From Balneolales bacterium (GTDB taxonomy: Bacteria; Bacteroidota; Rhodothermia; Balneolales; Natronogracilivirgulaceae): 34,303 nucleotides of DNA. Below are positions 12,668 to 33,384 of the stretch, piece by piece. Each line of letters opens with the position of its first letter. The first letter of the stretch is position 1. The position numbers and the translations under genes are program-made. The notes under the pieces are model-generated. The model made no database searches and was not told the origin of the DNA. It saw only the letters and a program-made list of their open reading frames with translations. The stretch is taken from contig SKIC01000276.1 of NCBI GenBank assembly GCA_007116685.1, positions 1 to 34,303 of the forward strand. Reading direction: 5' to 3'.

Positions 12668-12919
12668 ATGTCATTTACAGAAGAATTCAAAATCACCGGA
12701 AATAATATCGTGCAAAAAATTGCCGAAATTTTAAATGAGGGAAACATCCGCAGGCTTGTATTAAAGAATAAAGACGGCAAAGTTTTATTGGATACGACTC
12801 TTACTATAGCAAGCATTGGCGGGGGATGGATTTTCTTACTATCACCAATCATTGCTACTATCGCAGCCATAGTGATGAGCCTCAAAGAAGTGACATTAGA
12901 GATAGAAAGAATAGATTAA
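12668..12919 (+). CDS. DUF4342 domain-containing small membrane protein
   Basis: 83 aa 'FKITGNNIVQKIAEILNEGNIRRLVLKNKDGKVLLDTTLTI...' matches the DUF4342 pattern; GGAGG upstream of ATG. Confidence 0.85.
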   Translation: MSFTEEFKITGNNIVQKIAEILNEGNIRRLVLKNKDGKVLLDTTLTIASIGGGWIFLLSPIIATIAAIVMSLKEVTLEIERID

Positions 12920-13060
12920 TAGCAGACATTTCCTGTAGCAAATTCCATTTTTCTATTTATTAAAATCCTATTTCACGACCACATCTATATACATGTTTGA
13001 TATCTAGCTGAAGTAAAAACCTCAAAAAAAGCTATTTATGATATCTATATGCGGTTTTCT

Positions 13061-13214
13061 GGAAGCGTTTTTAGCATCTGTTATTTTGACAGATTTTCTT
13101 AAAAGCGCTTTTTTATTTATTAAAAAATCATAAAAGCGCTTCGACCATTTTTACACACGTCATTTAAGCATACTTGAAAGAGAATTAAAAGCGTTTCCAT
13201 TGTCATTTATGACA
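13061..13214. promoter_or_regulatory. Cluster of operator-like palindromes (GGAAGCGTTTTT, AAAAGCGCTTTT, AAAAGCGCTT, AAAAGCGTTTCC, TGTCATttATGACA)
   Basis: 13061-13072, perfect 12-bp palindrome 13101-13112, 13132-13141, 13187-13198, and TGTCAT-tt-ATGACA 13201-13214. Confidence 0.5.
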
Positions 13215-13263
13215 TACAATTGAAGGATAAAATAATAGTTCAATAATTATTCAAATGATTTTC

Positions 13264-13295
13264 TTTGAGACGAGGAACAAATCATCGTAATTTTG
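13264..13295 (+). promoter_or_regulatory. Bacteroidota-type promoter (TTTG-N20-TAATTTTG)
   Basis: TTTG 13264-13267, 20-nt spacer, TAATTTTG 13288-13295, matching the consensus TTTG-N19..21-TAnnTTTG. Confidence 0.6.
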
Positions 13296-13361
13296 CATTG
13301 TCATATTCAAACAAGAGTATCCAACCTCTTTCACAATATTATCAGTTACGGTCTTACTAAT

Positions 13362-13445
13362 AATTATCTCGAAAACGAAACAGATAATTTAACTAATCAC
13401 AGAAATTGGCATAACGCCAATACCAGCATGCAGTGAAAATCACTG
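13362..13445 (+). other. Putative structured 5' leader: three consecutive stem-loops
   Basis: AATTATCT-N12-AGATAATT (13362-13389); ATTGGC-ataac-GCCAAT (13405-13421); CAGTGA-aaa-TCACTG (13431-13445); all between predicted TSS and ATG at 13473. Confidence 0.45.
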
Positions 13446-13472
13446 TAGCTATTATAAATCAAATCATAATAC

Positions 13473-13949
13473 ATGATAAACATCAGATATATAATTAAAA
13501 CATTAGTCCTTGTACTTATTACAGGAACCAGTAGCGTCAGTTCCCTTCAGGCACTTGATACTACATACACACCACAACCTGACAGAAGCCATGTTGTGAT
13601 TCAACAATCAAATATGGATATGGTCGTAAATCAAAACATTCAGAATCTTTCCTCTGTGTCTGAGTCTGTGTTCACGATTTCTTTGACCAATCTAATGCAG
13701 ATTGCCTACTTAATGCCTGATGGCTCTTATCGCTCTGATATCAAAGAAGCCTTGCAGGAAACCATGAATACTGCTGCACTTACCTCGCACAGATATAAGG
13801 CATACCTTGCATTACTTACGCTCGACAGCGATGATTATGAAGAATGGATGAGCGACAGAATTAGTCTGGATCATCAAAACTTCATCATTGCGATTGCAAA
13901 TCACGTAAATCAAAAATTAATAGGAGACCCAACTCGTGACACTCCATAA
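13473..13949 (+). CDS. Orphan secreted/periplasmic protein of unknown function
   Basis: 158 aa; hydrophobic N-terminal signal (IRYIIKTLVLVLITGTSSVSSLQA), own promoter and terminator; no family recognised. Confidence 0.7.
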   Translation: MINIRYIIKTLVLVLITGTSSVSSLQALDTTYTPQPDRSHVVIQQSNMDMVVNQNIQNLSSVSESVFTISLTNLMQIAYLMPDGSYRSDIKEALQETMNTAALTSHRYKAYLALLTLDSDDYEEWMSDRISLDHQNFIIAIANHVNQKLIGDPTRDTP

Positions 13950-14010
13950 AAACTGAGGATATCTATGCTTGAAGAAACCGATTGTGAACCCTCACATCAG
14001 GTAGCACATA

Positions 14011-14053
14011 AAAAACCGGCTCTGTCTATACTTTTATGACATCCGGTTTTTTC
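14011..14053 (+). terminator. Rho-independent terminator after the orphan gene
   Basis: AAAAAACCGG ... CCGGTTTTTT with inner TGTC/GACA pairing and U-tract. Confidence 0.8.
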
Positions 14054-14222
14054 ATTTTCATTATATCCCCTAACATTTTTCTTGCCCTTCTATATCCCGA
14101 AATGGTCTCATAATCTAATATGAAAGACCATGCTGCACTTCCAAAATAACCGAAAAACAAATTTTGCAGATGCTATTTGATTGGTTATTATTGGCGAATA
14201 ACTCAAATCAACAACACTTCTT

Positions 14223-15635
14223 CTGGAATTTATAGAACAAATACTCGTCGATTTTGCCAACTTTGCCTGGGGTCCGTTTCTTTTAGTTCTCCTTGTGGGT
14301 GGCGGCTTGTTTTTTCTGATTATTTCTCGATTTATCCCCTATCGCCACTTTTTTCATGGGATAGATATCCTTACCGGCAAATATGAAGACCCAGACGCAC
14401 CGGGAGATATCAATCATTTCCAGGCGCTTTCCAGTGCGCTTGCGGCCACCGTTGGGATGGGGAATATCAGTGGCGTGGCAATCGCTATTATCGTTGGTGG
14501 ACCGGGAGCTATTTTCTGGATGTGGGTTTCTGCGCTTGTGGGTATGGCTACGAAGTTTTTCACCTGTACCCTGGCCATTCTTTATCGCGGTTACGATTCC
14601 ATGGGAAAGCTACAAGGTGGCCCGATGTATTTCATTACGGAAGGTCTTGGTAAAAAGTGGAAGCCGCTTGCCATTTTCTTTTCTATTGCCGGTTTATTGG
14701 GATGTACTCCTATGTTTCAGTCCAACCAATTGAGCCAAATTCTACGCGATACAGTTTTCATTCCTCTGGATATTTTGGGCGGCACTTCAACCGTATTGTC
14801 CGGTAGCGGAATTTCTGAGGCCGGATTTTTTATCTCTGATATTTTAGTTGGAATCACACTTGCCATTTTAGTTGCCTTGGTAATATTTGGAGGAATCAAA
14901 AGAATTGGATCGGTAACTGCCAGTTTGGTACCCCTTATGGTATTGATTTACGTGATGGCAGTAGTTTATATCATCATTAGCAATTACACCGAAATCCCAT
15001 ACTATCTCTCTTTAATCGTTACCGATGCTTTTACCGGACAAGCTGCTGCCGGAGGTGCTGTTGGAGTGGTGATTATAACTGGAATTCGCCGGGCAGCCTT
15101 TTCTAACGAAGCCGGTATTGGTACGGAAGCAATGGCACACGGCGCCGCAAAAACCCGAGAGCCTGTTCGCGAAGGCCTGGTAGCCATGCTCGAACCAGCC
15201 ATCGACACTTTGCTTGTGTGCACTATGACGGCCCTAGCAATTCTCATGACCGGCGTATGGACGACATCTGATGCGGATGGAATCACGCTTACGGCCATGG
15301 CTTTTTCTCAGGGGATTCCAGGCATAGGAAATACTGTGCTAATCATTTGTGTGGTTATTTTCAGCATTACCACCATGTTCACCTATAATTACTACGGCGC
15401 TAAATGCTTCGGATTTTTGTTCGGTGCCGAGCGCAGACACTACTATAATTACTTCTATCTTTTCGCCGTATTTTTTGGCGCCATCATGACCATTGACGCC
15501 GTAGTGAGTTTGATTGACGGCATGTTTGCCTTAATGGCCATCCCAACGATGACCGCCACATTATTACTCTCGCCAAAAGTGATGCAAGCCACCCGCGATT
15601 ACTTCCGCCGACGAGAAGCGGGTGAGATGGATTGA
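14223..15635 (+). CDS. Alanine/glycine:cation symporter family (AGCS) protein
   Basis: 'FSNEAGIGTEAMAHGAAKT' and 'VGMGNISGVAIAIIVGGPGAIFWMW' AGCS signatures; conserved N-terminus LEFIEQILVDFANFAWGPFLLVLLVGGG is in frame upstream of the ORF-caller GTG at 14295, with no ATG/GTG/TTG start. Confidence 0.9.
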   Translation: MEFIEQILVDFANFAWGPFLLVLLVGGGLFFLIISRFIPYRHFFHGIDILTGKYEDPDAPGDINHFQALSSALAATVGMGNISGVAIAIIVGGPGAIFWMWVSALVGMATKFFTCTLAILYRGYDSMGKLQGGPMYFITEGLGKKWKPLAIFFSIAGLLGCTPMFQSNQLSQILRDTVFIPLDILGGTSTVLSGSGISEAGFFISDILVGITLAILVALVIFGGIKRIGSVTASLVPLMVLIYVMAVVYIIISNYTEIPYYLSLIVTDAFTGQAAAGGAVGVVIITGIRRAAFSNEAGIGTEAMAHGAAKTREPVREGLVAMLEPAIDTLLVCTMTALAILMTGVWTTSDADGITLTAMAFSQGIPGIGNTVLIICVVIFSITTMFTYNYYGAKCFGFLFGAERRHYYNYFYLFAVFFGAIMTIDAVVSLIDGMFALMAIPTMTATLLLSPKVMQATRDYFRRREAGEMD

Positions 15636-19568: not shown

Positions 19569-19606
19569 ACGAGCCTATTTTAGTTAAATGGGGGAATAGC
19601 ACAACT

Positions 19607-19620
19607 TGAAAGCGCTTACA
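19607..19620. promoter_or_regulatory. LacI/cre-like operator TGAAAGCGCTTACA
   Basis: Palindromic core AAGCGCTT 19610-19617, about 40 bp upstream of the small CTERM-like gene. Confidence 0.45.
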
Positions 19621-33263: not shown

Positions 33264-33302
33264 CAAATATACGGCTTGGCCAATTGATTTGAAAAAGCGC
33301 TT
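33264..33302 (-). promoter_or_regulatory. Predicted promoter of acyl-CoA dehydrogenase with adjacent AAGCGCTT operator-like palindrome
   Basis: Minus strand TTTC (33294-33291) N19 TATATTTG (33271-33264); AAGCGCTT 33295-33302 directly upstream of the -33 box. Confidence 0.5.
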
Positions 33303-33384
33303 ACAATTATTAAAGAAGATTGTATTTCAATTTAAAGCAGGTTCTTTCTGAAACGAACTATGATTTGCTGTAGTTTGCTATCTA

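Follow-up and report, generated by a model that had tools for sequence, protein, structure and literature searches.

A predicted LacI-type operator array and a hairpin-bearing leader upstream of a small secreted protein gene in Balneolales

The locus and the family of its secreted protein

How is a small gene for a secreted protein controlled when some 550 bp of non-coding DNA stand in front of it, and does the control lie in the leader of its mRNA or in the DNA further upstream? We analysed this locus within a window of 34,303 nucleotides, the whole stretch of DNA under study. The region between 12920 and 13472 had been described as non-coding, and it contained no open reading frame of at least 80 aa; it is flanked by a DUF4342 gene (12668–12919) and by the gene of the 158-aa protein, behind which the expected terminator was also found, as a hairpin with 10-bp perfect arms, a T-run and a folding z of −5.3 (Table 1). 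A DUF4342 gene beside a comM-type gene is the general gene order in relatives, and a gene-order comparison did not find the secreted-protein gene at that position in them. Further along the window (14220–14300), the frame of a sodium:alanine symporter runs on 5′ of its listed GTG (14295), with no evident ATG and an in-frame CTG at 14223.

Table 1. Coordinates of the observed and predicted features of the control region and its gene
Feature	Position	Strand	Description
Predicted LacI-type operator O1	13060–13074	−	TGGAAGCGTTTTTAG; CG centre 13066/13067; matrix score 15.7
Predicted LacI-type operator O2	13100–13114	−	TAAAAGCGCTTTTTT; CG centre 13106/13107; score 20.3
Predicted LacI-type operator O3	13130–13144	+	ATAAAAGCGCTTCGA; CG centre 13137/13138; score 19.8
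Predicted LacI-type operator O4	13185–13199	+	TTAAAAGCGTTTCCA; CG centre 13192/13193; score 18.6
Inverted repeat	13201–13214	.	TGTCATTTATGACA; perfect TGTCA-N4-TGACA; counterpart of an element kept after O4 in relatives
Predicted promoter	13264–13267, 13288–13295	+	TTTG (−33), N20, TAATTTTG (−7)
Leader stem-loop 1	13362–13389	+	8-bp stem AATTATCT/AGATAATT; fold, shuffles
Leader stem-loop 2	13405–13421	+	6-bp stem ATTGGC/GCCAAT, 5-nt loop; fold, shuffles
Leader stem-loop 3	13425–13450	+	CAGTGA/TCACTG (13431–13445), extending in the fold to ~11 bp; likely counterpart of the relatives' 5′-terminal hairpin
Small secreted protein gene	13473–13949	+	158 aa; RYKAYLALL at residues 107–115
Terminator-like hairpin and T-run	14010–14052	+	3′ of the secreted-protein gene

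The original prediction treated the 158-aa protein as an orphan that could not be placed in a family. As far as Pfam, NCBIfam, PHROGs, the PDB and phages are concerned this stood, as no family was found for it there; a single weak NCBIfam score for DnaN (17 bits) was judged to be due to chance. The protein returned no relative when used directly as a query against genome and viral contigs. Relatives in the order were reached through one weak match in genome G009 (24% identity, 155-aa frame), a small secreted protein sharing its layout, and a search with this protein returned the window gene (E 0.005) together with other loci fitting one family. A profile built from eight sequences matched in 38 of the 117 sampled Balneolales genomes (approximately one-third), a few of the weakest matches lying in long unrelated frames, and the orphan status was thereby refuted. 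The family is characterized by a signal peptide and a helical core bearing the motif RYKAYLxL, both of which are present in the window protein; its identity with most members is 15–22%, so that membership is at the profile level. Thus, on sequence comparison, the 158-aa protein belongs to an unnamed Balneolales family of small secreted proteins, in which it is divergent. None of the 27 members in the alignment was convincingly matched by a Pfam model. AlphaFold models were all-helical, one moderate (pLDDT 62) and one poor (40), and a PDB fold comparison of the former gave no match.

In Rhodohalobacter (L146, R. sulfatireducens) and its relatives the family gene has a macro-domain-like gene on one side and a Clp-type chaperone gene on the other, both neighbours being identified by eye from their N-termini. 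In genus g12 of another family of the order (L149–L152) it lies beside, and divergent from, a gene judged by eye to encode a BlaI/MecI-type regulator. At one locus (L070) the gene is tandemly duplicated, the downstream copy having no operator array of the kind described below.

An array of predicted operators upstream of the promoter

The inverted repeats of the upstream region are made up of four occurrences of one CG-centred site, AAAAGCGYTT, which is often flanked on one side by CCA (O1–O4; scored with a matrix derived from sites elsewhere in the host genome). Their spacing is O1-40-O2-31-O3-55-O4, followed by 95 bp to the −7 box. A central CG pair within an even palindrome is a hallmark of LacI-family operators, according to PMC4052901; all four sites are CG-centred, and O2 contains a perfect even palindrome, AAAAGCGCTTTT. 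The suggestion that this stretch is a regulatory island was therefore strongly supported, with the qualification that its main content is an array of DNA operators, the four sites of which were absent from the original prediction.

The same motif recurs in the host genome, where AAAAGCGYTT occurs 60 times as against 25 for the reversed control. When the site entries were sorted by position (palindromes being counted twice), 38 of 59 were intergenic, often 10–100 bases 5′ of a start codon. The window holds the sole four-site cluster among the host loci examined. The consensus of the host sites is near TNAAAAGCGCTTNCA, which was found in 43 of the 60 genomes examined; controls gave next to no matches. 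Recurrence upstream of genes and in related genomes, as expected of LacI operators, was thus seen in the host genome, at the family loci and across the order. Two other operator-like sites, both intergenic, lie elsewhere in the window, one at 33291–33305 (score 20.8) before an alpha/beta hydrolase gene (33385) and one at 19606–19620 (score 16.1) before a response-regulator gene region.

We then compared the DNA upstream of the family members. At a score of at least 13, with a matrix derived from other host sites alone, the 460 bp upstream contained 70 sites (6.6/kb), compared with three (0.046/kb) elsewhere in those loci; exact-core sites numbered 55 in the upstream regions, against 1.1 in shuffles and none in the reversed control. 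The usual layout was O1-(60, 70–71 or 81–82)-O2-(28–29)-O3-(84–86)-O4-(86 or 95–97)-TAnnTT, the variants differing by approximately 10–11 bp, one helical turn. Rhodohalobacter has spacings of 71/28/84, unlike the 40/31/55 of the window; L156, which belongs to a different Balneolales family, has 31/56. More divergent members had weaker arrays with 21/64 spacing, and no clear array was found upstream of the distant members L055–L057. The operator array is kept upstream of the gene in Rhodohalobacter and other families of the order. A TGACA/TGTCA element, of which the inverted repeat next to O4 is the counterpart in the window, was present within 60 bp past O4 in 21 of 26 members (upstream regions of L067–L092), mostly 26–27 bp past the O4 centre and 15 bp where the operator sits one turn nearer the promoter; it is possibly the site of a second factor.

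Could the inverted repeats have another origin, as the remnant of a mobile element or a bidirectional terminator? The segment 12990–13240 folds well (z −3.2), as such a reading would expect, owing to base pairing between the repeats. However, no further DNA copy of the island was found in the genome, and it is the short core, not its flanks, that recurs genome-wide, in intergenic positions and with fixed spacing in orthologues, making this origin highly improbable. A transposon or attC reading was ruled out because each arm of the repeats is itself a predicted operator.

The promoter is an exact match to the Bacteroidota-type pattern TTTG-N20-TAnnTTTG, and 2.1 TTTG/TAnnTTTG matches are expected by chance (spacers of 17–23, whole window, both strands). 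It was upheld by the array, since the 95 bp between O4 and the −7 box fall within the 86 or 95–97 bp of the relatives. Because this distance matches that of the orthologues, the promoter, and hence the predicted leader of ~170 nt, gains independent support; from the sequence, we infer a transcription start near 13302.

The leader RNA

Folding of the leader gave a z of −4.0 for 13302–13490 and −4.7 for 13350–13460, and no shuffle out of 200 folded equally well. The leader contained four perfect stems of 6 bp or longer, the fourth being weak, and three or more such stems were seen in 0.55% of shuffles. The three stem-loops originally proposed were recovered in place, the third of them longer than predicted (Table 1), and are stronger than chance would give.

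The leaders of relatives are shorter, approximately 55–60 nt with one hairpin. The Rhodohalobacter-type promoter (TTGA, ~20 bp, TAACTTT) lies ~60 bp 5′ of the ATG, so that the hairpin begins at the predicted 5′ end of the mRNA or immediately beside it. Covariation, which the original prediction had named as a check, was detected in the Rhodohalobacter-type hairpin, where, for a structure picked by eye on the closer set A5 and counted on those same sequences, eight pairs were changed on both sides with 19 such cells, compared with 4.4 and 7.7 in shuffles. None of 500 shuffles equalled this result, which was also above slid controls, the counts including kinship among the sequences. In the wider leader alignment (A3), however, RNAalifold predicted no structure, and stem-loops 1 and 2 had no alignable homologue or counterpart in the relatives' leaders. 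A covariance model of the relatives' hairpin placed held-out members correctly (L148, E 0.0005; L079 and L090, E 0.01–0.015), the match of L147 being a repeat of a sequence already in the model. Applied to 13200–13500 of the window (301 bases), the model gave stem-loop 3 as its best match, a weak one (9.3 bits, E ~0.1). Stem-loop 3 ends ~22 nt 5′ of the ATG and the relatives' hairpin ~28 nt. The window leader thus looks like a longer version of the relatives' leader with two extra hairpins.

We considered whether the leader itself might be the controlling element, a riboswitch-like or protein-responsive cis-regulatory RNA in the ~170-nt 5′ UTR to which the operators are secondary. Such a role would fit the strong folding and the covarying hairpin that was recovered in held-out members, but the Rfam search put forward with the original prediction gave no match in the window's leader at gathering or permissive thresholds. 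The short, single-hairpin leaders of the relatives, which have nothing corresponding to the first two stem-loops, also speak against it, as does the finding that no terminator or ribosome-site-sequestering alternative was seen, the stretch 5′ of the ATG being unpaired. Control by the leader is therefore improbable, and ligand-controlled regulation by it is not supported. What stood of the cis-regulatory RNA proposed at the outset is the covarying hairpin of Rhodohalobacter-type leaders; for the window, a riboregulator role is unproven. The simplest and most likely reading is that the hairpins, chiefly the last, would have a stabilizing or insulating role. The arrangement resembles that of ompA-type mRNAs, in which a 5′ stabilizing hairpin lies at or near the start of the message of an exported-protein gene and the A/T-rich sequence between hairpin and ATG is unpaired. 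The sequences are unrelated and the window hairpins lie inside a longer leader, a stabilizing role here being our proposal.

A candidate carbon-control regulator and its regulon

By site position alone, the genes assigned to the motif in the host genome include those of central metabolism, namely PEP carboxykinase, a fructose-1,6-bisphosphatase, glutamate dehydrogenase and 2-oxoglutarate dehydrogenase E2, as well as glycine C-acetyltransferase, isobutyryl-CoA mutase and an enoyl-CoA hydratase-type gene. The placement of the motif near gluconeogenic and amino-acid-catabolic genes suggests a CcpA-like global regulator. At locus L137 (G000:C235), three motif sites flank a divergent gene pair, of which one gene encodes a Fib_succ_major protein carrying a Por secretion tail and the other a lipoprotein resembling glycosyl hydrolases; these exported products apparently belong to the putative regulon.

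Four LacI-HTH proteins are encoded in the host genome (C243, C326, C14 and C62). The 333-aa protein of contig C243, whose gene adjoins a purC-like gene, was found in 57 of 60 genomes with 52–74% identity in relatives, and its best PDB match was CcpA with PurR close behind; scanning its locus for an operator of its own revealed no clear autoregulatory site. We take this protein to be the best candidate reader of the motif. The presence of four such proteins, and of motif sites near a glycosyl hydrolase gene and a glycosyltransferase gene, would also be consistent with a local reader of the array, a LacI protein that regulates a sugar pathway (e.g. C326, C14 or C62), in place of an order-wide global one. 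This is rather unlikely, given that the motif is found close to many genes of central metabolism and in genomes across the order, and that C14-type proteins pass the threshold in just 24 of 60 relatives.

Taken together, our results point to a LacI-family control region in which, probably, four operators read by a CcpA-like global regulator set the secreted-protein promoter and the mRNA carries a hairpin leader. The regulator would occupy the four CG-centred operators (TGNAAGCGCTTTT type), probably co-operatively and with DNA looping; by this looping it would set the activity of the promoter and thereby tie expression of the secreted protein to carbon status. The transcript would carry the ~170-nt leader, and the hairpins of this leader, the last above all, would most probably shield or insulate the 5′ region of the mRNA. 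Because the operators lie at least ~110 bp from the predicted start, upstream of the promoter and not on it, activation seems slightly more likely than repression by looping. A comparable arrangement is seen in promoters of the lac type, which are controlled by looping: several operators, spaced in steps of the helical repeat, lie upstream of a single promoter. The control region here has four sites, all of them upstream of the promoter, and looping is a proposal.

The system resembles CcpA/cre of Firmicutes in its LacI-family candidate regulator, its CG-centred TGNAARCG-type site, and the genes of central carbon and amino-acid metabolism nearby. It differs in its phylum, Balneolota, in having four phased sites on one promoter and in its second half-site, which is AAAA/TTTT here where TGWAANCGNTNWCA has CA. 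The motif that is conserved in our sites is TGNAAGCGCTTTT, and the second CA of the full cre consensus is absent from most sites. In Proteobacteria, FruR, PckR, GapR and GluR are single LacI regulators predicted to control gluconeogenic and glycolytic genes through CG-centred palindromes (PMC4052901), and the list of site-adjoining genes in our host resembles those of these global regulators, although the motifs differ and the host belongs to Balneolota. For none of the four did the passages of PMC4052901 consulted mention an operator array at the gene of a secreted protein. No carbon-control regulator for Balneolota was found in the literature searched.

More tentatively, the motif may mark an undescribed, order-wide LacI-type carbon-control regulon in Balneolota, whose most heavily wired target would be an uncharacterized small secreted protein rather than an enzyme, under a phased four-operator looping array coupled to a 5′-terminal mRNA hairpin; this protein could then be a main extracellular output of carbon status. 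What appeared to be an orphan with a curious leader becomes a defined regulatory unit that can be tested and is conserved across an order. The finding points to a carbon-control regulator in Balneolota and connects a conserved secreted protein with central metabolism.
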